A DNA stretch of 64,000 nt, taken from the IMG/VR virus record IMGVR_UViG_3300034063_000636, positions 44,215 through 108,214 of that record, one strand, 5' to 3'. Origin of the DNA: a virus. Positions 16,500 to 44,953 of this stretch are shown here, one piece after another; the first letter of the stretch is position 1; each line of letters opens with the position of its first letter. A program made the translations under genes and the position numbers. A model generated the notes under the pieces. The model searched no databases, was not told where the DNA came from, and was given only the letters and a program-made list of their open reading frames with translations.

Positions 16500-16501
16500 T
16501 C

Positions 16502-16726
16502 ATGTTAGTTAAGATAAAAGACAATGATGATCTTGCAAGAGATGTGAAGTCAAGAGCAATCTTGAATGTTAATAAAAACGTTTTGCTTAAAGATCAGATG
16601 TATCAAGAGAAACTAAAGAAACAACAAGAGGTAGAGTCCTCAATAAATACTCTCAGAGAAGAAGTATCTTCGATTAAAGGCGACATTTCTAAGATTCTAG
16701 AAATGTTGAGTTCCAGAGGTAAATAA
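16502..16726 (+). CDS. Small coiled-coil protein
   Basis: This encodes a 74-residue acidic and basic protein with no signal peptide or membrane segment. Residues about 34-70 (KLKKQQEVESSINTLREEV, then SSIKGDISKILEML) show a heptad pattern expected of a coiled coil. An in-frame TTG at 16496 overlaps the previous stop, but the ATG at 16502 directly after that stop is the simpler start. The stop overlaps the next ATG by one base (TAATG), so it is translationally coupled to the fibre-like gene. A role as a small virion or chaperone component is a guess. Confidence 0.7.
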   Translation: MLVKIKDNDDLARDVKSRAILNVNKNVLLKDQMYQEKLKKQQEVESSINTLREEVSSIKGDISKILEMLSSRGK

Positions 16727-17769
16727 TGGCGAACACAAATATTTCACATGTCCAATTAGTGAACACCTTTAATGAGTGGCGTGCAGCAACTAATGACTTA
16801 ATTGAAGATAGAAATATTCTTCGAAATGCTCATTATGTCAAAGATAATTCTTCTTTTGACATTGCAAACGGAACCATGACGATCAGCCGTTCAAGCAACG
16901 GCACAGTTCTAACAGTCGCAAACTCTGGTAACGTTGCTGTCGGTGGTTGGGTCAATGCAAATACTCTTGCAACAAACTCAGAACTCTGGTTTGGATTAAG
17001 AACTAGCGACATTGCTTCTGTCATTAAGATGACACAAGAGCCAGCAAATACTGTAGAGGCTGGAAACGCAACTTGGTATACTGCAAATCAGAAATCAAAT
17101 AATCCATATTACGGATTCACCTTCCACTCCAATGGCACAATGGTCATTGCGAATGAAGAGGAGAATGCAACTCAAGTGGTTGTCATCGGTGACTCTGCTT
17201 ACAATGTTTCTCCGACCAAAAATGGTACGATTTTTGGTGTCAGTACAATCGTTGGAACATCAGCACCAACAACAGGATATGAATCTGGTTGGCAACCCGT
17301 TCTAGACCTTCGAAGCAATTCTCTATTCATCATGCCAGTTGCTTCTGCAAATGCAGGCAATTGTTTGTATTACAACGTAACAACTGGCGAAATCACATAC
17401 TCAACTGCGCCAAGCGGTAATGTTCTTGCTGGTGATCCAATTCTAATCAACACTGCAGTTGATTCTGCAAACACTGTAAGACTAAATGTGTCAAACTGGT
17501 TCAAGTATACATTGACAGGATCATCTGGCAATCGTAATTTGACATTCACAAATCCTCCTGCTTCTGGCAATGCATATACGTTCACAATGATTGTGATTCA
17601 AGATGGAACAGGCGGTAAAACTCCAAATTGGACAAATACAGTGTATTGGGCTGGTGGACAAATTCCTCCGCCAACAACTGACGCAAGCGCACAGGATATC
17701 TGGACATTTACCACATATGATGGTGGAACAACATATATTGGCACACTTGCTGTTAAAGACGCGAGATAA
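16726..17769 (+). CDS. Tail-fibre-like structural protein
   Basis: This 347-residue protein has an N-terminal segment (SHVQLVNTFNEWRAATNDLI) typical of short T4-like fibre or structural proteins in marine phages, then a beta-rich body (GTMTISRSSNGTVLTVANSG). The C-terminal 100 residues (NLTFTNPPASGNAYTF, GGKTPNWTNTVYWAGG) match a terminal beta domain common on marine phage fibres. No enzymatic motif is visible. It is coupled to the coiled-coil gene upstream by a one-base overlap and followed two bases later by the tandem-repeat protein, so the three are probably made together as one fibre unit. Exact role unknown. Confidence 0.65.
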   Translation: MANTNISHVQLVNTFNEWRAATNDLIEDRNILRNAHYVKDNSSFDIANGTMTISRSSNGTVLTVANSGNVAVGGWVNANTLATNSELWFGLRTSDIASVIKMTQEPANTVEAGNATWYTANQKSNNPYYGFTFHSNGTMVIANEEENATQVVVIGDSAYNVSPTKNGTIFGVSTIVGTSAPTTGYESGWQPVLDLRSNSLFIMPVASANAGNCLYYNVTTGEITYSTAPSGNVLAGDPILINTAVDSANTVRLNVSNWFKYTLTGSSGNRNLTFTNPPASGNAYTFTMIVIQDGTGGKTPNWTNTVYWAGGQIPPPTTDASAQDIWTFTTYDGGTTYIGTLAVKDAR

Positions 17770-17771
17770 TC

Positions 17772-19721
17772 ATGCCGAATAGTTTTGGCTTAAACAAAAC
17801 TTGGATTCCTGGTCCTTCCAGAGGAACAACGACATTCAATACTACTGGCAATATTAATATTGCTTATGGTAGAAATAAAACCACAGTTTCAGGTCGTGGT
17901 GGTTCTGGTTCAGGTGCTTCATACAACACTGTTCCAGGAACAACTAATCCCACTACATTTCCATACACACCAGCATCGTATAATACGGTTCCTGGAAATT
18001 TAAATCCAACAACTTATCCGTTTACTCCAGCATCATATAATACAGTGCCTGGAACGACAAATCCTACAACGTTTCCCTTTGTTCCTGCTAGTTATAATAC
18101 TGTGCCTGGAAATACAAATCCACCAAACTATCCTTACACACCAGATAGTTACAACACTGTTCCTGGAACAACCAATCCAACAGTGTATCCATATACTCCA
18201 GAAAGTTATAACACTGTTCCAGGAAATAGTAATCCGCCAAATTATCCATTTACTCCTGAATCATACAATACAGTGCCAGGAAACTTAAATCCAACCAATT
18301 ATCCATACACACCAGCTTCGTACAATACAGTTCCTGGAAACACTAATCCAACTAACTACCCATTCGTTCCTGCATCATATAATACTGTTCCTGGTAATTT
18401 GAATCCAACAGTGTATCCATATACACCAGAGAGTTACAACACTGTTCCTGGAAATACAAATCCAACAAACTATCCATATACACCAGCTTCCTATAATACT
18501 GTTCCTGGAAATACTAATCCAACTAACTATCCATATACCCCAGAAAGTTATAACACAGTTCCTGGAAATACAAATCCAACGAATTATCCGTACACTCCAG
18601 AGAGTTATAACACTGTAACAAACTATCCATATACTCCAGGCTCATATAACGCACCAACAGGTGTTAGTTGGAATTTGACTGCAATCGGACCAAGTTACGG
18701 TGGTGTTGCAACAATAATTGGTGACGGATTTGATACAAATTGCCCATCACCATATAGCACACCAACTCCGTTTGGTCCAGACGAATTCACATATGAATGT
18801 TTCCCAGCTGGAAATACTGAAAATCCTGCGAGTTATAACACAGTTACCAATTATCCATATACACCTGCGTCGTATAATACAGTTCCAGGAAATGTAAATC
18901 CAACCAATTATCCGTTTACCCCTGCATCGTACAATACAGTCCCAGGAAATTTAAATCCAACGAACTATCCTTATGTTCCTGCAAGTTATAACACTGTTCC
19001 TGGCAATTTAAATCCAACCAATTATCCATACACACCAGCATCGTATAATACAGTTCCTGGAAACTTAAATCCAACGAACTATCCTTATGTTCCTGCAAGT
19101 TATAACACTGTTCCAGGAAATGTAAATCCGACAGTGTATCCATATACTCCAGAAAGTTATAATACAGTTCCTGGTAACTTGAATCCGACTAATTATCCGT
19201 TTACTCCTGCATCGTATAATACGGTTCCTGGTAACAGCAATCCACCAACTTATCCATACACACCAGCGTCTTACAATACTGTTCCTGGGACAACAAATCC
19301 AACCAATTATCCGTATACACCAGCATCGTATAACACAGTATCAGGAAACTTAAATCCAACCAATTATCCATTCGTTCCTGCAAGTTATAACACGGTTCCA
19401 GGAACGACAAATCCACCGTCGTATCCATTCGTGCCTGCAAGTTATAATACTGTGCCAGGAACAACAAATCCAACAGTGTATCCATTCGTCCCTGCAAGTT
19501 ATAATACTGTGCCAGGAACAACAAATCCAACAGTGTATCCATTTACTCCAGGAGTTCCTGGAACACCAACAACTGTTCTTGGTGTATACTTCCCAGGCGG
19601 TGTTGCTGGCGTTGCTCCATATGTTCCAGAAACTGTAGTGAATTATTGGGACTATCCAGATAATGCGACCTATCCAGTCACTGTTCCAACAGGTGCATAC
19701 ATAGTAGTGAAGATTGAATAA
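17772..19721 (+). CDS. Tandem-repeat fibre protein with mirrored 12 + 12 nineteen-residue repeats
   Basis: This 649-residue protein is mostly the repeat (A/E)SYNTVPGxxNPTxYPYTP, 19 residues (57 bases) long. After about 48 residues come exactly 12 full repeats, one 13-residue repeat lacking the six residues PGNxNP, a unique 63-residue module, another 13-residue short repeat, 12 more full repeats, then a C-terminal domain ending in YPVTVPTGAYIVVKIE. The unique module holds two cysteines (DTNCPSP and YECFPAG). The unit is rich in Pro, Tyr, Asn and Thr with no Lys or Arg, suiting an extended virion fibre or a substrate for hydroxylation or glycosylation. A 2OG dioxygenase follows directly. I know no named family for it, and function is unknown. 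Confidence 0.75.
   Translation: MPNSFGLNKTWIPGPSRGTTTFNTTGNINIAYGRNKTTVSGRGGSGSGASYNTVPGTTNPTTFPYTPASYNTVPGNLNPTTYPFTPASYNTVPGTTNPTTFPFVPASYNTVPGNTNPPNYPYTPDSYNTVPGTTNPTVYPYTPESYNTVPGNSNPPNYPFTPESYNTVPGNLNPTNYPYTPASYNTVPGNTNPTNYPFVPASYNTVPGNLNPTVYPYTPESYNTVPGNTNPTNYPYTPASYNTVPGNTNPTNYPYTPESYNTVPGNTNPTNYPYTPESYNTVTNYPYTPGSYNAPTGVSWNLTAIGPSYGGVATIIGDGFDTNCPSPYSTPTPFGPDEFTYECFPAGNTENPASYNTVTNYPYTPASYNTVPGNVNPTNYPFTPASYNTVPGNLNPTNYPYVPASYNTVPGNLNPTNYPYTPASYNTVPGNLNPTNYPYVPASYNTVPGNVNPTVYPYTPESYNTVPGNLNPTNYPFTPASYNTVPGNSNPPTYPYTPASYNTVPGTTNPTNYPYTPASYNTVSGNLNPTNYPFVPASYNTVPGTTNPPSYPFVPASYNTVPGTTNPTVYPFVPASYNTVPGTTNPTVYPFTPGVPGTPTTVLGVYFPGGVAGVAPYVPETVVNYWDYPDNATYPVTVPTGAYIVVKIE
17916..18638 (+). 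repeat. Repeat block 1: 12 x 57 bp plus one 39-bp truncated unit
   Basis: Twelve in-frame 57-base units run 17916-18599 with no indel, followed by a 39-base unit (18600-18638) missing 18 bases. Units differ mostly at synonymous positions, so the protein pattern is kept while the DNA has diverged. Confidence 0.95.
18828..19550 (+). repeat. Repeat block 2: one 39-bp truncated unit plus 12 x 57 bp
   Basis: The 39-base short unit comes first (18828-18866), then exactly twelve 57-base units (18867-19550). This mirrors block 1, with the short units facing the central module. The last two units are almost identical in DNA, pointing to a recent duplication, while others differ at many silent sites. 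Confidence 0.95.
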
Positions 19722-19723
19722 AC

Positions 19724-19752
19724 TTGAAATTTTTTATAGATTGTAGTATAAT
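19724..19752 (+). promoter_or_regulatory. Sigma70-like promoter before the dioxygenase/glycosyltransferase operon
   Basis: TTGAAA (19724-19729), a 17-base spacer and a perfect TATAAT (19747-19752) lie between the repeat-protein stop and the dioxygenase start. GGAG at 19765-19768 serves as ribosome site seven bases before the ATG. It resembles a host-type or phage early promoter rather than the ATAAATA late type seen before structural genes. Confidence 0.65.
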
Positions 19753-19775
19753 GATTTAAATCTTGGAGTTATATT

Positions 19776-20366
19776 ATGCCATCATTCACAAAGTACATAA
19801 AACCACTTCCTCAGTTTTGTATTGTTGATAATTATTTCACTGAAGAAGAAGTCGATAAAATTATTGATCTTGAAGAATTGCAAGAATTCAGTGAGGGTAA
19901 GATGGGAACTGGTCCATCAACAACCACTAATAAACAATATCGCGACAGTGACATTTCTTGGTTGAAATGGAGCCCAGATTCTAGATGGATATTTGATAAA
20001 TTTGGTTCATTGATGGGTCAAGTAAACCACTCTCACTTCATGTATGATATTGATGGTTTTGATGCGTTTCAATACACCAAGTATAAACCAAAGCAACATT
20101 ATAATTGGCACTTTGATGCCTTCACAGAATTTCATGGCTTCGAACGAAAGATTAGTGCAGTGGTAATTTTATCAGACCCCAAAAAATATTCTGGTGGAGA
20201 ATTTCAAATTGTTGCGGATGGAAATATAGAAAAACCGCACTCAATAAAACCACCAAAAGGTTCTGTAATATTCTTTGCTTCTTGGATGCCGCATAGAGTT
20301 GCGCCAGTTAAATCTGGAGTTCGTAAATCTTTGGTTGCTTGGATTATGGGTAAAAGAGTATGCTAA
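19776..20366 (+). CDS. 2-oxoglutarate/Fe(II) dioxygenase, PKHD (prolyl hydroxylase-like) type
   Basis: This 196-residue cytoplasmic enzyme should hydroxylate a substrate with O2, Fe(II) and 2-oxoglutarate. The iron triad is visible as His112-x-Asp114 (YNWHFDAF) and His173 (MPHRVAPV), with the 2OG-binding Arg183 exactly ten residues after the distal His, as in prolyl 4-hydroxylase-like proteins. Supporting motifs are KISAVVILSD, YSGGEFQI and PKGSVIFFASW. Its promoter separates it from the fibre genes, and it overlaps the next gene by seven bases. The adjacent repeat protein rich in Pro and Asn is an attractive substrate, but that is inference. Small-molecule, nucleotide or sugar substrates are alternatives. 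Confidence 0.85.
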   Translation: MPSFTKYIKPLPQFCIVDNYFTEEEVDKIIDLEELQEFSEGKMGTGPSTTTNKQYRDSDISWLKWSPDSRWIFDKFGSLMGQVNHSHFMYDIDGFDAFQYTKYKPKQHYNWHFDAFTEFHGFERKISAVVILSDPKKYSGGEFQIVADGNIEKPHSIKPPKGSVIFFASWMPHRVAPVKSGVRKSLVAWIMGKRVC

Positions 20367-21088
20367 ACAAATTGATTCGTGTTTTTAAAAATGATGTGAT
20401 TGAATTTTACTGTCACCCAAAGTTTGAGAATGTCATTCCTGAACCAAAGCCAGCAATCAAATATTTGCCTGAGTGGTTTAGAATTATTCCTCCAGTTTCA
20501 AAGACTCGGAGAGATGAATACAATGACTTTGCGATGAATGCTAAAAAGTGTTTCCCAATGATTGATGCAATGTCTTTGGGATATACAATACCATTGTGTG
20601 GTGATATTCATGTCATGGTCAATAACGATATGACAGAAATGAAGTATACAAGCCCACCAGAAATGAAATTGGCAGATAGCCATAACGTTGAACAAATTGG
20701 TGGAGAGTCAGCCCCAGGATTTCCAATCAATCCGATCAAGTTTATCAATTATTGGATTATTAAGACTGCTCCAGGCTGGTCGACATTGTTTATTCCTCCA
20801 ATTAATCATGTTGGAACTCCATTTACTTGTTTGGGTGGATTAGTTGACACTGATAGATATCCAAAGGAAGTTAATTTTCCAGCAATTTGGAATCAGCCTG
20901 GTTTTGATGGATTAATTCGTGCAGGAACTCCTCTGGTGACTGCAATCCCAATTAAGAGAAATTCATTTCCGAAAAAACCAAAAGTCAGAAAAATTAAAGA
21001 TAAAGAATTTAATGAGATTGAATTGATTCGAAAGAAACAAGTGACCAGAAAAAATGTATACACAAATGAATTGAGAGATGAACGATGA
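20360..21088 (+). CDS. Conserved phage protein of unknown function, paralogue A
   Basis: This 242-residue protein has motifs I remember from hypothetical proteins of marine T4-like phages: EPKPAIKYLPEWFRIIPP near residue 28, MIDAMSLGYTIPLCGDIHV near 67, WIIKTAPGWSTLFIPPINH, GGLVDTDRYP and IRAGTPLVTAIPIKR. It is cytoplasmic by eye, with no signal or membrane segment and a basic tail. The order GLVD ... I-x-AG-x-PL ... IP recalls the dUTPase/DCD beta fold, but no catalytic motif can be claimed. It overlaps the dioxygenase and the next gene, so all are co-translated. The next gene is a diverged copy. Function unknown. Confidence 0.7.
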   Translation: MLNKLIRVFKNDVIEFYCHPKFENVIPEPKPAIKYLPEWFRIIPPVSKTRRDEYNDFAMNAKKCFPMIDAMSLGYTIPLCGDIHVMVNNDMTEMKYTSPPEMKLADSHNVEQIGGESAPGFPINPIKFINYWIIKTAPGWSTLFIPPINHVGTPFTCLGGLVDTDRYPKEVNFPAIWNQPGFDGLIRAGTPLVTAIPIKRNSFPKKPKVRKIKDKEFNEIELIRKKQVTRKNVYTNELRDER

Positions 21089-21903
21089 AATTTTTTGATT
21101 TTTTTAAACCTAAAGAAACATTTAATGATTCGATTGACGATGAGATTAAGGAAATCTCAAACACTTCTGTTGTTCAATCGACTATTGGTAGAAACAAGTT
21201 AGAATTTATCGATTCATCAGAACTCGTATTTGCTAGTTTACCAATTCAATTAGCAAAAGATGTTCCTGTAAACTCGCAAGCACATGTAGAAAAGCTCGGA
21301 AATAAGTTCACATTTCCAGTCTGCCCTGGCATGTTTGACTATTCGCGACTTGGCTACATTGTTCCAGCCTGGTCAGACTATCATTTTAAGATAAATAAAG
21401 CTGGATGTGCTGCATTAGTTGGTGGGGGACAAAAAGCATCTCCATTTAAGCCTCCAGTTCCGATGGCAACTGATGTTGTCGATGGTCTTTTTAAATTAAG
21501 CGACGGAATTCCACTTAAAACATATAATATCAATTCTCCTTGGAAAATATTTTCTTACGACAAAGATATATCAGCATTACTTCTTCCTGCTTGGTATCAT
21601 GCAGACGTAGAGTTTTTAGATAATTTTTATGTTTATCCTGGAGTTGTTGATTATAATACATTTCATACTATGAATGTCATTCTTTCTCCAAAAAGAAAGT
21701 GTGAGTATACGATTAAAGCGGGAGATCCTTTATTACACGTCATTCCGTTTTATAATAAACAAATTGAATGTGGTTATGGACCACCAAACATAGAACAAAA
21801 AAGCATATTATCATACGATCCTAAAATCCACGAAACGCAATTTTATCGAAAGAATCATATGATTAAAAAGAGTTTCGCACTAGAAGAAAGCAATAAAGAA
21901 TGA
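21085..21903 (+). CDS. Conserved phage protein of unknown function, paralogue B
   Basis: This 272-residue protein is a diverged relative of the gene before it. The same order of blocks is present: FPVCPGMFDYSRLGYIVPAW (versus FPMIDAMSLGYTIPLC), INSPWKIFSYDKDISALLLP (versus IIKTAPGWSTLFIP), YPGVVDYNTFHTMNVI and IKAGDPLLHVIPFYNK. It adds about 60 residues at the N-terminus. A four-base ATGA overlap couples it to paralogue A, and another couples it to the glycosyltransferase. The pair may form a heteromer. Function is unknown. Co-expression with a hydroxylase and a glycosyltransferase suggests modification or donor-metabolite chemistry, but nothing in the sequence proves this. Confidence 0.65.
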   Translation: MKFFDFFKPKETFNDSIDDEIKEISNTSVVQSTIGRNKLEFIDSSELVFASLPIQLAKDVPVNSQAHVEKLGNKFTFPVCPGMFDYSRLGYIVPAWSDYHFKINKAGCAALVGGGQKASPFKPPVPMATDVVDGLFKLSDGIPLKTYNINSPWKIFSYDKDISALLLPAWYHADVEFLDNFYVYPGVVDYNTFHTMNVILSPKRKCEYTIKAGDPLLHVIPFYNKQIECGYGPPNIEQKSILSYDPKIHETQFYRKNHMIKKSFALEESNKE

Positions 21904-22847
21904 AGATATTTGTAAGCATATGCTCATACAGAGACCCTCTGTTAGTATACACTCTAAAAGCATTAATGCAGACCAAGTCTGCAATTACAGAAGTTGTGTA
22001 CGGCATATTTGAACAAAATGAAAAAGAAAATAGTTTAGAAACTCTATTTCCAGATCTAGTCGCCAGAAGCGATGTAAAATATAAACGAATCGATCCACAA
22101 TACTCGGAAGGTGTTGGTTGGGCTCGAAATATTAATGCTCTCCAGTTAACTGACGAGGATTTTTATTATCAGATCGACTCTCACATGGTTTTCGATAAGA
22201 ATTGGGATCGCGATTTAATTAACGATTATAAAGAAGGCTGTAGAGCGATCGAGTCAAACAGAGTCATTATCAGTTCGAACTGTAAAAATTTCGAGATGGT
22301 CGATGGTAATGTCGTTTTAGAGCATGGCATGGACTATACATGCAGAGCAAGATTCTATCAGTTTAATCCAAATCTTTGGCTTTTTGCTCACGGCGAACAT
22401 ATTCCTCCAACTGAAACCGTGATGCCAGCGATACACATCTTTGCTGGAAATATGTTTACACACTCTGATTGGGTTCGAAATGTCGGAATCAATCCTAGAA
22501 TATTCTTTCATGGAGAGGAGCAAGCGATAACTCTCTCATCGTTTGCTGCAGGATATCGATTTTTCCACGGAAAGAGGATGTCGTGCTATCACTATAAAGG
22601 ATCTAATGAACATACATCAAAGCAGGACTTTAAACCTGTTGTTCCTTTAGAGATCATTGAAGAGAGAAAACGTAGATCAGAAATTGAATTTAGAGCATTT
22701 TTAGACTCTCTCGAGGACGATTTACTCGAGGAATACCGAGTCTACTCTGGCGTGAATTATATAAATAAGAAAATAGAAGAACGTGCCATAACCCGAGTGA
22801 TTAAACCAAGCATCGATATTGACTGGGAAGTAGGCGATTCTGAATAA
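21900..22847 (+). CDS. GlcNAc-transferase-like glycosyltransferase (PF11397 type)
   Basis: This 315-residue enzyme resembles the 'GlcNAc' family, whose Dictyostelium members attach GlcNAc to hydroxyproline of Skp1. Signatures are the N-terminal IFVSICSYRDPLL (residues 3-15), GIFEQN, GWARN, the metal and nucleotide-sugar motif YYQIDSHMVF with Asp93-Ser-His95 in place of DxD, NWDRDLI, and the late FFHGEEQ motif (His204-Glu207). It ends the four-gene operon that begins with a prolyl-hydroxylase-like enzyme. In the eukaryotic Skp1 pathway the same two activities act in sequence, which makes the pairing notable. Sugar and acceptor cannot be read from the sequence. Confidence 0.82.
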   Translation: MKIFVSICSYRDPLLVYTLKALMQTKSAITEVVYGIFEQNEKENSLETLFPDLVARSDVKYKRIDPQYSEGVGWARNINALQLTDEDFYYQIDSHMVFDKNWDRDLINDYKEGCRAIESNRVIISSNCKNFEMVDGNVVLEHGMDYTCRARFYQFNPNLWLFAHGEHIPPTETVMPAIHIFAGNMFTHSDWVRNVGINPRIFFHGEEQAITLSSFAAGYRFFHGKRMSCYHYKGSNEHTSKQDFKPVVPLEIIEERKRRSEIEFRAFLDSLEDDLLEEYRVYSGVNYINKKIEERAITRVIKPSIDIDWEVGDSE

Positions 22848-22872
22848 AAAACATAGTTCATAGAGAATTTTC

Positions 22873-23205
22873 ATGCCATACGCAGAGTTAACGGTTGATC
22901 AGGGCACAACTTTCGAAACTTCTATAGATTTAGTTGGCGATGATGGCGCTGCGATCAATATCGCAGGGTGCGTTTTCTTGGGTCAAGTTCGCAAATCTTA
23001 TTATTCTTCCAATGTAACTGCAAATCTGACAATTACCACTTTAAGTAATACAGGTGGAAATCTAATCATGTCTTTAAATTCAGCAGTCACTGCAAACATT
23101 AGAGCAGGTCGTTATCTTTATGACGTAAAGATGACTGATACAGATAACATAACAACTCGAGTCGTAGAAGGTATTCTAACTGTGACACCACAGGTGTCCA
23201 GATAA
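22873..23205 (+). CDS. Small beta-rich fibre-associated protein
   Basis: This 110-residue protein starts with YAELTVDQGTTFETSIDL and contains FLGQVRKSYYS and GRYLYDVKMTD. The pattern fits a single beta-sandwich domain like those at the base of fibre or baseplate upper proteins (BppU N-terminal-like), a fold guess from sequence feel. Its stop overlaps the start of the 2470-residue fibre by one base, so it is probably an adaptor made in step with that fibre. There is no signal peptide, membrane segment or catalytic motif. Confidence 0.6.
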   Translation: MPYAELTVDQGTTFETSIDLVGDDGAAINIAGCVFLGQVRKSYYSSNVTANLTITTLSNTGGNLIMSLNSAVTANIRAGRYLYDVKMTDTDNITTRVVEGILTVTPQVSR

Positions 23206-26200
23206 TGAAGATAACGATTACGAATAATAATCAGATCGGTAAGGTTACTTTCGGCAAAGTGACGAGAGTCGGCGATCTATATGCAAACGATATTCTAGAT
23301 CTTATAAACACAGTCGTTTATAGATCAGGCTCAACGATGACAGGCAACTTAAATGTTGCTGCGACAATTATTACGCAAAACGTAATTCCGTCTGTCAATA
23401 ATACATACAATCTTGGTAGTCCAACTTATCGATACAAAGATGCATACTTTGGTGGTAACACTGTATACATCGGCGACTCTATACTATCAGCACAAGCAAA
23501 CAGTCTTTTAACAAATACATTTATTGCTACAACATCATTTGTTAGTGGTGGCTTAAACGTTCTAGACCAAGCAAATGCTGCATATGCTGAAGCCAACTTA
23601 AAACTCGGTCTTGGTGGCGGTACAATTACAGGAAGTCTTACTGTAACTGGAAACCTCGAAGTTCTCGGTAATACAACAACACTTAATGTTGAAACATTGT
23701 CACTCGAAGACAATGAAATTATTCTCAATTCAAATGTAACTGGTCCACCATTACTTGACTCGTTCATAACGATCAATCGTGGATCAATGACAAATGCTGT
23801 TCTTAAGTGGGATGAAAGCACTGATCAATGGAAGTGGTCGGATGGCAATGGCGTATATTATGCACTAGATTCTTCTTTGGGCGCATATGCTCAAGCCAAC
23901 GGAGCGTATGCACAAGCCAATGGTGCCTATGCTCAAGCAAACGGAGCCTATTCTCAAGCCAATGGTGCATTTGCGCAAGCAAACGGAGCATATGCTCAGG
24001 CTAACGGTGCTTACGCCCAAGCAAACGGAGCGTATGCGCAAGCAAATGCAGCAAGCGATAATGCAAACACGAGAGTTCTAAAAGCTGGCGATACAATGAC
24101 TGGTCAGCTGAACATCAGTTCAGGCGGTCTTGTTGTCACTGGCAATATTGTTACAACTGGTGCAAGTGGCGACATAACTGGCGTCAATACCATTTATGCT
24201 GGAACATTCTCAACAACAGCTGGATTAAATGTTACTGCTCAAGCAGCAAATGCTTACGAGCAAGCCAATAATGCTAGAACAACAGCAAATGGTGCATACT
24301 TACAAGCCAACGGCGCTTATGCACAGGCTAATGGGGCTTACGCTCAGGCAAATGGCGCATACGCTCAGGCAAATGGTGCTTATGCGCAAGCCAATGGTGC
24401 CTATGCACAAGCGAATGGTGTTTATGCTCACGCTAATGGAATTTATGATGTTGCAAACGCTGCATATGCTCAAGCCAATGCAGACTATCAACCTGCTGTA
24501 ACAAGATTTGATGTGACCTCTAGCGGAACATCAGCATACAGATTCGATCAATATGGCTCAATCGTTGACGATCCAACACTTTATGTTCGTGCTGGTGAAA
24601 CTCTTGCATTCAATTTGAATGTAGTTGGGCATCCATTCATGATCCGCCAATCAAATGGTGGAGCAAATTATAATACTGGATTGACTCACGTTGAAACTAC
24701 AGGTGTAATTTCTACAGGGGCGAGTGCACAAGGTAAAACAACAGGTGTTCTTTATTGGAAAGTTCCATTTGAACTTCAAGGCAACACTTACGTTTATCAA
24801 TGTCAAGTGCATTCTGCGATGGTTGGCAATATTGTTATTGAGCCACCATCAACGATCATTTATGCTCAAGCGAATGTTGCATTTGATACTGCCAATGGTG
24901 CGTACTCACAAGCAAATGGTGCATATAGCCAAGCCAATGGCGCTTATGCACAAGCCAACGGTGCGTATGCGCAGGCAAATGGTGCCTATGCTCAAGCCAA
25001 CTCAGCATATGCTCATGCAAACATAGTTTACGCTCAAGCCAACGCAAGTTTTGATCAAGCGAATACTGCTAGAACAACAGCAAATGATGCATATGAGCAA
25101 GCAAACACTGCAAGAAGCACAGCCAACGATTCATATGCTCAAGCGAATACGGCACGTGATACTGGCAACAACGCATATGCTCAAGCAAACACCGCTCGCG
25201 ATACAGCAAATGATTCTTACGCTCAAGCAAACACCGCTAGAGACACTGGTAACAATGCTTATCTGCAAGCCAATACTGCTAGAGACACTGGCAACAACGC
25301 ATATGCTCAGGCGAATACCGCTAGAGATACTGGTAACGATGCATATAGTCAAGCGAACACTGCTCGCAATACTGCTAATGATGCATACTTACAAGCCAAT
25401 AATGCATACGCTGAAGCCAATATAAAACTTAACATCTCTGGTGGATCGATCACTGGTGATTTGATCGTTTCTGGAAATCTAGAAGTTCTAGGAAACAGCA
25501 CAACATTAAATGTTGAAACTCTTGCAATTGAAGACAATGAGATTATTCTCAACTCAAATGTAACTGGATCACCAACACTTGATGGCTTTATTACAATCAA
25601 TCGTGGCAGCAACACAAATGCTTCGATTAAGTGGGATGAAAATACGAATCAGTGGAAGTGGACGGATGGTGATACATTCTTCTATGCATTTGACTCTGCT
25701 TTAGATGCTTATGCTCAAGCAAATACTGCACGTGATCAAGCCAATACCGCTAGAGAAACTGGCAATGATGCCTATGGTCAAGCCAACACTGCAAGAACAA
25801 CAGCAAACGACGCTTACCTTCAAGCCAATACTGCTCGCGACCAGGCAAATACGGCACGTGATACTGGCAACAATGCTTACGCTCAAGCGAATACAGCTCT
25901 TGATACCGCTAATGGTGCATACGCTCAAGCAAATGGCGCCTATGCTCAAGCCAACGGAGCGTATGCACAAGCAAATCTAGCATTTGGTCAAGCCAATGGT
26001 GCATACGCTCAAGCAAATGGTGCTTATGCGCATGCTAATATTGTTTACGCTCAAGCAAATGCTGCATTCAATCAGGCAAATACTGGAAATGACTCTGCAA
26101 ATGCAGCCTATGCACAAGCAAATACTGCACGCGATACTGGCAACAATGCATATGGACAAGCGAACACAGCTCGCACAACTGCCAATGACGCATATGCTCA

Positions 26201-42329: not shown

Positions 42330-44953
42330 GTTATCTTTTCCTTGGTAAACGCAATTTGCTAGGCAGTAATGCTGCAAATACAGCAGGCATTTGGCGTGCT
42401 GAAGATATTACGCAGATGCGATATTATGATTTTATTAGAGGACCAGTCGCCGCACAAGAAATTATTGTTGAAGTATTCGCTAATACAACTACGTGGACAG
42501 CACCAACAGGTGTAAGCGAAGTCGAATATCTTGTTGTCGGTGGTGGAGGTGGTGGTGGGGCTGGACCTTCATCTGGCTATGGTGGAGGTGGCGGCGGTGC
42601 TGGTGGATTTAGAACAGGCACTGGATATTCTGTAACTCCTGGCGTATCTTATACAGTAACTGTTGGAGCAGGTGGAAATGGCGTTTCTCCTGCTACTAAT
42701 GCACTTGGTTCAAATGGATCTTCTTCTGTATTTGGTAATTCTCCAAATGCGATAACATCGGCGGGTGGTGGAGGTGGCGGTGCTGCTGCATCACCACTAC
42801 ACATAGGATTAAGTGGTGGCTCAGGCGGTGGCGGCGGCGGATCAACCACAAGCAACGGTGGTGTCGGAAATACGCCAAGCACATCTCCATCGCAAGGAAA
42901 CAATGGTGGCACAGGAGCTGCTGGTCCATTAGGTGGAGCTGGTGGTGGAGGTGGCGCAGGAGCAGTTGGCAATAATGGATCATCACCAGGAGTTGGTGGT
43001 AATGGCGGTGCTGGATCCTCCTCTACAATTGCTGGTGCTTCTGTAACTTACGCTGGTGGTGGTGCTGGCGGCGCAACATTTGCTGCAGGAGCTAGCACTG
43101 GTGGTGCTGGTGGTGGTGGAAATTCTGTTCCTAACGGCACAGCCAATAACGGCACTGCAAGTACAGGTGGTGGTGGAGGTGGTGGTAGCACAAATCCAGG
43201 AACAACTTATGCTTCTGGTTCAGGTGGCTCTGGCGTCGTAGTCATCAAATACACAAGACCAAACGCAAATGCTGCTGCCAATGTCTGGGTCTTCAGAACA
43301 TCAACAACTTGGACTGCTCCAGCCAATACAACTTTAATCGATTATCTTGTAGTTGGTGGCGGAGCTGGTGGAGGATTTTTAGGTGGTGGTGGAGGAGCAG
43401 GTGGGTTCAGAACTGGATCTGGATACTCAGTTACACCAGCAACATCATATACAATTACAGTGGGTGCTGGTGGTAATGGTGGATTATATCCATCATCAAC
43501 TGCTGCATCAAATGGTAGCGTATCTATTATTGCTCTTACAAGCAATGCATCATCAAACGTGTTTTCTTCTGGTGGCGGCGGTGGAGGCAGTCACAATTCT
43601 CCAGCTGCAGGTTCGCCGAATCTAGGATTTAATGGTGCATCGGGTGGTGGTGGTGGATCATCTGGTGGTTCTGGTCCAGGCGGAACAGGAAATATACCTG
43701 CTGTAAGTCCATCACAAGGAAATAATGGCGGCAATGCAGCTGGAAATGCACCACCTGGATATGGTGGAGGCGGAGGAGGTGGCGGAGGAGCATCAGGTAA
43801 TACTGGAACTAGTTCTGCAGGTGGAAATGGTGGAATTGGCATAGCATCTACGATGTCTGGTGTTTCTACTTTTTATTCTGGTGGCGGTGGTGGTGGTTCA
43901 CAGCAAAATACAACACGTGGGGTTGGTGGTGCTGGCGGTGGCGGCGATGGGAATTCTGGAAACCCAGCAACAGTTCCATATGCAGGAAATAATGCAATAA
44001 CAAACACTGGCGGTGGTGGCGGTGGCGGTGGATGGAATCCTAACACCTATGGCGCGGGTGGTGCTGGCGGATCTGGAATAGTTATCATCAAAGCAATCTC
44101 TGGTGCGAATGCAAATCTAGCCACGTTTACTTCTTCAGGTTCATGGACTGCACCAACAGGCGCGACACAGGTTGAATATCTCGTTGTTGCTGGCGGAGGC
44201 GGTGGTGGTTGGTTAAGTGCAGGTGGTGGTGGTGCAGGAGGTCTTCGCGTTGGAAGTGGGTTATCTGTAACTGCAGGTCAAACTTATACTGTTACTGTGG
44301 GTGCTGGCGGTACTGCAGCAACTGGTTCAACTGGTAGTCCTTATGCAACATCAAGCGGCGGTTCTGGAGGCAACTCAACATTTAGCACAATTACATCTAA
44401 TGGTGGTGGTGGTGGTGGAGCATATAATTCTGCTGGTCCTGCTTATCAAAATGGAGTTGCTGGTGGTTCTGGTGGCGGTGGCGCCATAGGTGAACCATCT
44501 CTCGGTGGGGTTGGAGGCGCAGGAAATACGCCAGCAACTTCTCCGTCGCAAGGAAATGGTGGCGGAACTGCAAATTATAATTCACCAGGTGGAACTTATT
44601 CTGGTGGTGGTGGAGGAGGTGCAGGTGCAAATGGAACATCTGCAGCAGCTGCAACTGGCGCTGGTTCTGGTGGTTCAGGAGTATCCTCTACAATCACAGG
44701 TATTGCAGTAAATTATGCTGGTGGCGGTGGTGGTGGCTGTCATAATAGTAGCACCAATAACACACTAGGTGGCGTTGGTGGCACTGGAGGCGGTGGTAAT
44801 GGCGCAGTTGGTCCAGGATTTGTAAGCACTTCAGCCACAACCAATACAGGTGGCGGTGGTGGAGGTGGTGGCTGGAATCCAGGTGGACCTAATTCCAATG
44901 GCGCTCAAGGTGGAACTGGTGGCTCAGGTATTGTCATTCTCCGCTGGTCATAA
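42326..44953 (+). CDS. Glycine-rich adhesin, three domains (cassette C)
   Basis: This 875-residue protein has an N-terminal docking part of about 45 residues, longer than in A and B (FLGKRNLLGSNAANTAGIWR), then three glycine-rich domains opening near residues 52, 324 and 603 with the same variants as A and B (VSEVEYLVVGG, TLIDYLVVGG, TQVEYLVVAGG). Each contains a version of SPSQGN(N/G)GG and the protein ends IVILRWS. The different N-terminus next to the diverged copy C suggests the docking segment and the small partner changed together. Probably a receptor-binding adhesin. Confidence 0.78.
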   Translation: MSYLFLGKRNLLGSNAANTAGIWRAEDITQMRYYDFIRGPVAAQEIIVEVFANTTTWTAPTGVSEVEYLVVGGGGGGGAGPSSGYGGGGGGAGGFRTGTGYSVTPGVSYTVTVGAGGNGVSPATNALGSNGSSSVFGNSPNAITSAGGGGGGAAASPLHIGLSGGSGGGGGGSTTSNGGVGNTPSTSPSQGNNGGTGAAGPLGGAGGGGGAGAVGNNGSSPGVGGNGGAGSSSTIAGASVTYAGGGAGGATFAAGASTGGAGGGGNSVPNGTANNGTASTGGGGGGGSTNPGTTYASGSGGSGVVVIKYTRPNANAAANVWVFRTSTTWTAPANTTLIDYLVVGGGAGGGFLGGGGGAGGFRTGSGYSVTPATSYTITVGAGGNGGLYPSSTAASNGSVSIIALTSNASSNVFSSGGGGGGSHNSPAAGSPNLGFNGASGGGGGSSGGSGPGGTGNIPAVSPSQGNNGGNAAGNAPPGYGGGGGGGGGASGNTGTSSAGGNGGIGIASTMSGVSTFYSGGGGGGSQQNTTRGVGGAGGGGDGNSGNPATVPYAGNNAITNTGGGGGGGGWNPNTYGAGGAGGSGIVIIKAISGANANLATFTSSGSWTAPTGATQVEYLVVAGGGGGGWLSAGGGGAGGLRVGSGLSVTAGQTYTVTVGAGGTAATGSTGSPYATSSGGSGGNSTFSTITSNGGGGGGAYNSAGPAYQNGVAGGSGGGGAIGEPSLGGVGGAGNTPATSPSQGNGGGTANYNSPGGTYSGGGGGGAGANGTSAAAATGAGSGGSGVSSTITGIAVNYAGGGGGGCHNSSTNNTLGGVGGTGGGGNGAVGPGFVSTSATTNTGGGGGGGGWNPGGPNSNGAQGGTGGSGIVILRWS

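Follow-up and report, generated by a model that had tools for sequence, protein, structure and literature searches.

Equal and complementary repeat arms in a putative viral adhesion fibre suggest a very long zipped hairpin

Why should a protein carry two long blocks of repeats that match each other unit for unit on either side of a unique module? The question is raised by an open reading frame (ORF) at positions 17772-19721 of a 64,000-nucleotide stretch of viral DNA (IMG/VR record IMGVR_UViG_3300034063_000636, positions 44,215 to 108,214), hereafter the window. Its product, the window protein, has 649 amino acids (aa), with arms of 241 and 241 aa around the centre. A preliminary description based on the letters alone had proposed two mirrored blocks of 12 nineteen-residue units, each with one shortened unit facing a central module, and had read them as a fibre or hairpin. 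The layout was reread as follows, with all features on the + strand and model confidence given as the mean predicted local distance difference test (pLDDT) score of AlphaFold2 (AF2):

17772..17915, +: N-terminal half of the base domain, 48 aa, LNKTWIPG..RGTTTFN..I.YGR..TVSGRGGSG, kept in the family while the repeats differ; AF2 mean pLDDT 88-96 in blocks of residues 11-50
17916..18599, +: left arm, 12 units of 19 aa (residues 49-276), each ASYNTV + PGNxNP + TNYPYTP, from direct reading and TRF
18600..18638, +: left 13-aa short unit ESYNTVTNYPYTP, without PGNxNP (residues 277-289), facing the right short unit exactly about residue 321
18639..18827, +: tip module, 63 aa, unique, with two Cys (residues 290-352), at the centre of symmetry
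18828..18866, +: right 13-aa short unit ASYNTVTNYPYTP, without PGNxNP (residues 353-365)
18867..19550, +: right arm, 12 units of 19 aa (residues 366-593)
19551..19721, +: C-terminal half of the base domain, 56 aa, PGTPTTVLGVYFPGG..NYWDYPDNATYPV.VPTG.IVVKIE, and the stop codon; AF2 mean pLDDT 84-95 in blocks from residue 591

The 12 + 12 units with zero indels per block were recovered exactly as claimed, as was the single shortened unit in each block, lacking PGNxNP and flanking the central 63-residue module. Both short units read SYNTV-TNYPYTP, and residue 321 is the geometric centre of the two blocks as well as of the module. The word mirrored proved apt for the placement of the short units and for the pairing register, but not for the DNA, in which all units are head-to-tail direct repeats and none is inverted. 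Contigs L002 and L003 (L-numbers denote IMG/VR relatives or contigs), which come from other metagenome data sets, encode the identical protein, and a one-off assembly error is therefore unlikely. The earlier remark that the units vary mainly at silent sites was also borne out: over all pairs of the 24 units, the proportions of synonymous and nonsynonymous differences (pS and pN) were 0.605 and 0.158, with a ratio of nonsynonymous to synonymous change (dN/dS) of 0.145. Nucleotide identity among units was 0.74 and 0.73 within the arms and 0.73 between them.

We consider it highly probable that the window protein is an adhesion fibre folded into one very long zipped antiparallel hairpin, with the two ends as its base and the central module as its tip. 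The N- and C-terminal ends would fold together into a predicted single beta-sandwich base, from which each arm would run outward to the central module at the far tip, probably the site of host contact. The arms would zip in register, with ASYNTV-type (Tyr/Asn) segments opposite TNYPYTP-type (Pro) segments and PGNxNP opposite PGNxNP, so that an extended Tyr/Asn-rich stretch of one arm would lie against a Pro-rich stretch of the other, perhaps held by Tyr-Pro stacking between the arms. A fixed rise per pair would require the lengths of facing segments to match and would thereby force matched changes; with the arms zipped in register, any gain, loss or shortening of a unit would have to be matched by its partner on the opposite arm. 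A rod would contain one hairpin or three, and arms of 47-354 aa, if extended, would make rods of very roughly 15 to 115 nm. Direct contact between the arms, the oligomeric state and the function of the tip are what we infer beyond the arm sequences themselves.

Relatives were collected from IMG/VR by scans with the whole protein first and then with the two end domains. Within this IMG/VR family it is the end domains that are conserved, while the repeats fall into several dissimilar types:

ASYNTVPGNxNPTNYPYTP: window, L004
irregular SYN/NYP units: L005
PGNxNPTxYGYNVT: L006
NYNTNYNVAYPIANQPEASRP: many relatives
GNPASYNPGSANYN: L033 group
PGNxNYNPxV: L084 group

No convincing cultured relative was found among 50,697 phage records by tblastn with the whole protein, the N-domain, the C-domain of L006 and the proteins of L022, L016 and L058 (low-complexity filter on, repeats partly masked); four of these searches gave no match, and the others only matches at E>=0.9 or E>=3. 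A scan of genome contigs returned one locus, which was truncated.

In most relatives the two arms are of nearly equal length. When the non-repetitive tip was masked automatically, 27 of the 28 proteins with a C-domain (all except L058, for which the masking gave no tip) had arms of 78-368 aa with a correlation of 0.977 between left and right; the relative difference |L-R|/(L+R) had a median of 0.014 and a maximum of 0.073. A larger set of 46 two-arm proteins, with arms of 47-354 aa, stayed at or below 0.036 in 44 cases. In this set identical proteins were counted once and near-identical ones kept, and many of the 46 are mutually related, so that they are not 46 independent cases. Some tips were set by hand (L005, L015, L041, L042, L058 and L084-L088) and those of seven held-out proteins by end motifs, while the set excludes the truncated L007, L035 and first L025 arm gene, the partial L059 and L081, and L055/L056 (of a type carrying a Hint domain).

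Moreover, the arms change length together. L004, the closest relative that differs, has flanking proteins 98.8-100% identical to those of the window and a layout of 11 units, a 13-aa unit, the module, a 13-aa unit and 11 units. Anchoring on related tips gave 49 protein pairs, of which 43 were usable (in the other six, a protein of the Hint type leaves the right-hand side without a value), and in 32 of these 43 the length difference was the same on both arms to within 5 residues. The left/right differences were 19/19 for window and L004, 23/23 for L041 and L042, 23/23 for L034 and L036 and 45/45 for L022 and L026, with 31/31, 28/28 and 184/182 among further pairs. The preliminary description had named unequal or freely varying counts in related phages as its refutation, and the outcome was the reverse: L004 has 11 + 11, and most pairs with related tips differ by matched amounts on the two arms. 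The alternative suggestion in that description of a length-measuring device gained no support of its own, with arm length varying about sevenfold across the family.

Beyond equal length, the arms are, at the level of their sequences, complementary in antiparallel register, and in irregular relatives this complementarity runs position by position. Tokens were compared antiparallel, outward from the tip, facing position by position. Each arm of L005 divides into 31 tokens, either S (ASYNTV-like) or P (TNYPYTP- or VSYPYTP-like). Facing tokens were of opposite type at 31/31 positions; other offsets gave 10-15 of 25-30, and none of 20,000 shuffles did as well. This result bears on the reading that a tandem array was equalised by DNA processes, namely whole-array duplication or gene conversion between the blocks, with no structural pairing. 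The units are indeed homologous within and between arms, as that reading expects. However, conversion or duplication predicts like opposite like in the same direction, whereas L005 has opposite types in mirror order, and its best same-direction value was 0.77. Facing segments in other relatives also differ in sequence (the Pro segments measure 9 or 14 aa, the Tyr segments opposite them 9 or 13 aa), and the window and L004 differ by one unit on both arms. We therefore regard equalisation by DNA processes as very improbable.

A comparable rule was found in the arms of the NYN type, in which Pro segments of 9 or 14 aa lie opposite Tyr segments of 9 or 13 aa, short against short and long against long. 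The first segment test, on 20 proteins, gave 319/337 agreeing pairs, with L039 at 9/17 and L045 at 15/20 under a narrower range of offsets; with offsets from -6 to 6 these two reached 18/19 and 22/22. Across 18 proteins of the NYN type, the rule held in 334/344 parsable pairs (362 facing positions in all); L026 (9/9, no variation) and L082 (4/4) were part of the first segment test only. Seven further tandem copies that had not been used in finding the rule agreed at 131/132 facing pairs, all at offset 0; 1, 0, 10, 0, 1, 0 and 0 of 3000 shuffles were as good, and their same-direction controls ranged from 7/13 to 13/17. In 290/337 parsable facing pairs of the first segment test, the number of aromatics in the Tyr segment equalled that of prolines in the Pro segment plus exactly one. 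L058 and L084-L088 lie outside the residue-level code tests.

A third family (L033, L034, L036, L037, L040, L041 and L042) has tokens of 7 or 8 aa of the kinds N, G and P, other kinds being omitted. Its 253 typed facing pairs included no N-N and no G-G pair and 18 P-P pairs, and token lengths were equal in 239/253 of them (a raw count, without shuffles); six of the seven did better than their shuffles. Counted from the tip, the PGN segments of L014 have lengths of 4, 4, 9, 9, 9, 4, 9 and 9 on both arms, a mirror match of 8/8 that was read off without shuffles. SGG stood opposite SGG at 0/14 places in L006, yet P was 0.23, and a cross-correlation scan was periodic and hard to read.

Could the arms instead be flexible, largely disordered spacers, equal in length only so that the tip hangs symmetrically and with no specific pairing? 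The low AF2 confidence in the arms and their low-complexity Pro/Asn/Tyr composition would suit such spacers. Disordered spacers need no position-by-position match of segment type and length, though, and we judge this explanation improbable.

The regular array of the window can be read by the same rule. Each unit consists of S (ASYNTV), X (PGNxNP) and P (TNYPYTP), and about residue 321 S lies opposite P, X opposite X and the two X-less units opposite each other. Under a pairing rule in which facing places must match, both short units therefore lack PGNxNP. A GNSNPP variant that occurs once per arm lies opposite itself (left unit 6 and right unit 7 in the window, left 6 and right 6 in L004), which was noticed post hoc; in L004 it sits in the middle unit, where mirror and same-direction order are indistinguishable. 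Variant-level mirror similarity in the window had a P of about 0.014. Given the 11 + 11 of L004, the equal changes on both arms in pairs with the same type of tip and the complementary facing segments, the proposal of a hairpin with the Cys-containing module at its apex is strongly supported.

Several observations weigh against the zipped hairpin and should be set beside these results. The window's regular array itself holds little code information beyond the short units and is weak evidence, and in L004 the variant-level mirror similarity had a P of 0.36, with same-direction similarity better (P 0.025). The token rules were set after the first sequences had been seen, and some proteins of the first set are homologues of the seven held-out ones, whose independence is thus incomplete. 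In the segment test, L016, L022, L029 and L057 taken singly do not beat shuffles at 5%; L029 has a same-direction control of 10/11 and a best offset that is not the central one. L040 of the third family fails against shuffles (677/2,000 reach as low a value), and same-direction order gives it a better (lower) value than mirror order. An interval-order test gave P<=0.05 in 15/27 proteins, with L015 at P 0.63. A composition mirror test on 38 proteins was not general (P<=0.05 in 7/38; mean mirror -0.143 against -0.137 shifted), a weakness due in part to the fact that unlike segments face each other in many arms. As to length, 11 of the 43 tip-anchored pairs disagree between arms by 8 to 25 residues, five of them involving L046; arms are unequal in L088 (116 against 100) and L057 (91 against 78); and L055/L056 have 198 against 281 aa beside the tip, interrupted by the Hint domain. 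Finally, in the single-chain AF2 models of the window protein and L082 most of the arm sequence scores below pLDDT 50, and the arms are not seen paired.

Some of these proteins have features of their own. The arms of L046 measure 317 and 295 aa and include six 21-aa Pro segments (four left, two right), all opposite long 13-aa Tyr segments; judged by their sequence, these look like 7-aa bulges, which would account for about 14 of the 22 residues by which the arms differ. L087:4107-5195 and L088:4146-5195 are near-identical, L088 lacking one 13-aa unit on one arm only, which could be a real exception or an assembly collapse of near-identical repeats. In L055:4980-8700 and L056:4980-8731, the arm gene is without the C-domain and ends in a Hint/intein-like domain (PF01079, PF14890 in L055). 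A second ORF starts from an overlapping TAATG at the stop codon and adds more arms, another two modules resembling tips and a C-domain of divergent sequence. The Hint region is possibly a degenerate or split intein.

The structure models bear on the base and the tip. Mean pLDDT was 44.6 for the window protein and 57.2 for L082, with confidence only in the N- and C-terminal parts, both mostly beta. Structural alignments by VIA-align were weak in the two models (Z at most 4.3, low scores that prove no relationship, just as absence from its match lists is not evidence), and they span both ends (residues 13 to 649 and 14 to 279). These models fit a single base domain made of the N- and C-terminal ends, into which the arms would be inserted. 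Foldseek returned no match in the PDB at E<=0.001 (best 8.8). One BFVD entry, A0A516KZD8 (503 aa), matched the window model at E 1.1e-4, but with TM-scores of 0.12 and 0.15 and a root-mean-square deviation (rmsd) of 62.9; it was the second match of L082, at E 0.049.

Pairing might also take place between chains rather than within one, arm 1 of one chain lying against arm 2 of another in a dimer or trimer, and such pairing would be what the equal lengths and the complementarity reflect. The sequence reads the same for intra- and inter-chain pairing, and the needle of the T4 long tail fibre protein gp37 is built of six antiparallel strands from three chains (PMC9659904). Against this, the two ends are modelled confidently and, aligned jointly, match single domains. 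This would place the two arm roots of a chain next to each other, with room left for chains to swap above the base. We think pairing between chains rather unlikely.

Judged by its occurrence in relatives, the tip acts as a module that can be swapped. Tips of the window's type are found on the NYN arms of L027, L039 and L045, the similar arms of L032 and L066 carry different tips, and so do the arms of L038 and L039, which have the same lengths. Upstream of the arm gene lie gp6-like and gp8-like baseplate wedge genes, DUF4815 and tail-fibre matches. The exchangeable tip, together with the position after baseplate genes, suggests a putative receptor-binding fibre.

Among known systems, the needle and head of T4 gp37, a long thin fibre end of antiparallel strands with a receptor-binding head at the tip (PMC9659904), come closest to the form proposed here. 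Unlike gp37, the present proteins have arms built of tandem repeats, as long as 354 aa, in which facing segments follow a code. Iron-coordinating His motifs are a hallmark of the gp37 needle, whereas the window protein has no His at all. No sequence relation to gp37 or any other solved fibre was seen when profile A6 (27 rows) was compared with PDB chains by hmmsearch (0 matches at E<=0.1). The sequence register agrees with an out-and-back antiparallel chain bearing a head at its tip, and AF2 leaves the arms of such a chain unresolved.

A possible likeness to Gly_rich_2 phage proteins would lie in a long insert in a beta sandwich, the arms here being Pro/Tyr/Asn-rich repeats and not polyglycine. 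Gly_rich_2 (PF21722) did not match the window protein (E<=0.1) or eight relatives (E<=5). In BFVD, matches of the models to glycine-rich phage proteins were weak and non-significant (E 0.31 and above), and the alignment with a Bxb1 tail-tip chain was likewise weak (Z 4.3, rmsd 4.2, 83 aligned). A Gly_rich_2 protein (PF21722, E 1.5e-72) is encoded at window:39231-41789, in the same genome as the arm gene, and was matched in the search that covered the eight relatives. Coiled coils and leucine zippers resemble the present case in that a code in the sequence determines which two strands pair and in what register; unlike them, the arms have no helical heptads, and the code would consist of the types and lengths of facing segments along an antiparallel hairpin. 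No protein with such a code of complementarity between facing segments is known to us. The literature, covered at title and abstract level and with most subscription papers and bioRxiv preprints outside that coverage, yielded no description of equal or complementary fibre arms, and novelty in print is not established.

The genes around the arm gene raise the further question of whether its prolines are modified. The neighbours in the window are:

16726..17769, +: tail-fibre-like gene (phrog_9017 and others, tail fiber), whose final ~110 aa are found again ahead of the arm gene in many loci
19776..20366, +: 2-oxoglutarate (2OG)-Fe(II) oxygenase, prolyl-hydroxylase-like (PF13640, E 1.4e-18)
20360..21903, +: two adjacent phrog_7084 genes, conserved neighbours
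21900..22847, +: PF11397 glycosyltransferase of the N-acetylglucosamine (GlcNAc) family (E 8e-32; 111.5 bits against a Pfam curated cut-off of 21)

In 43/43 locus rows, drawn from 37 contigs, the 2OG oxygenase match starts 12-99 bp past the final arm ORF; one contig has two arm loci, each followed by a 2OG gene. Tandem pairs of arm genes precede the 2OG gene in L022, L025, L026, L027, L029, L030, L038, L039, L044, L045, L046 and L048, and the tests of arm length and pairing took in the second copies. The oxygenase has six PDB matches, among them PKHD hydroxylases and prolyl 4-hydroxylase 5c5t. H112 and D114 (HxD) and R183 are present in 27/27 distinct sequences and H173 (distal His) in 26/27; we take H112, D114 and H173 to be the iron triad HxD...H and R183 the 2OG-binding Arg. 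The first phrog_7084 gene occurs in 37/43 locus rows and the PF11397 glycosyltransferase in 31/43, some of the other rows having little downstream DNA; the glycosyltransferase lies downstream of the arm gene, and upstream in the L033 group. In the haloviruses HF1 and HRTV-5, phrog_7084 relatives adjoin ribonucleotide reductase genes, with no annotated fibre gene beside them. No RNA family reached its gathering score in 16500-23300.

The GlcNAc-transferase of protist Skp1 presumably belongs to the PF11397 family. In the protist cytosolic pathway, a proline of Skp1 is hydroxylated and GlcNAc is then added (PMC8724618). The likeness lies in a prolyl-hydroxylase-type enzyme and a PF11397-type glycosyltransferase, here encoded beside a Pro-rich protein; unlike in the Skp1 pathway, the substrate and the organism are others and the modification is hypothetical. 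With this pathway as a precedent and given the invariable position of the oxygenase match and its near-invariant catalytic residues, the two enzymes may hydroxylate and then glycosylate the arm prolines, which would add to the zipped hairpin and not replace it. Against this, the arm protein is no more than a candidate substrate, and the glycosyltransferase was not found in L058, L084, L085, L087 and L088 despite at least 3.5 kb of downstream sequence. Moreover, 2OG oxygenases are common in phages. We thus hold such modification to be a real possibility, somewhat short of an even chance.

Elsewhere in the window, a second 2OG-Fe(II) oxygenase gene (PF13759) lies far from the arm gene, at window:45244-45852; the 1522-aa protein encoded downstream of it has six Laminin_G_3 stretches. 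A 2470-aa ORF at window:23205-30617 contains several 21/42-aa AYAQANG and QANTAR repeat arrays.

On balance, we lean slightly towards a general protein pairing code, in which short segments of two or three kinds, rich in Pro, Tyr/Asn or Gly/Asn, would match by type and length and so zip unstructured-looking strands into rods of encoded length and register. Unrelated repeat families would have converged on it, with arms evolving by matched double changes in the manner of nucleic-acid stems. A protein whose arms complement each other, segment for segment, over as many as about 350 residues each would be the protein counterpart of the nucleic-acid hairpin, with partner, register and length legible in the sequence. 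Structure would then become testable from sequence for low-complexity fibres whose arms the present predictions leave unresolved, and compensatory unit changes would be predicted. If true, the code could be written at will for protein rods of chosen length and partner, and the conserved prolyl-hydroxylase-like neighbour would gain a concrete candidate substrate.

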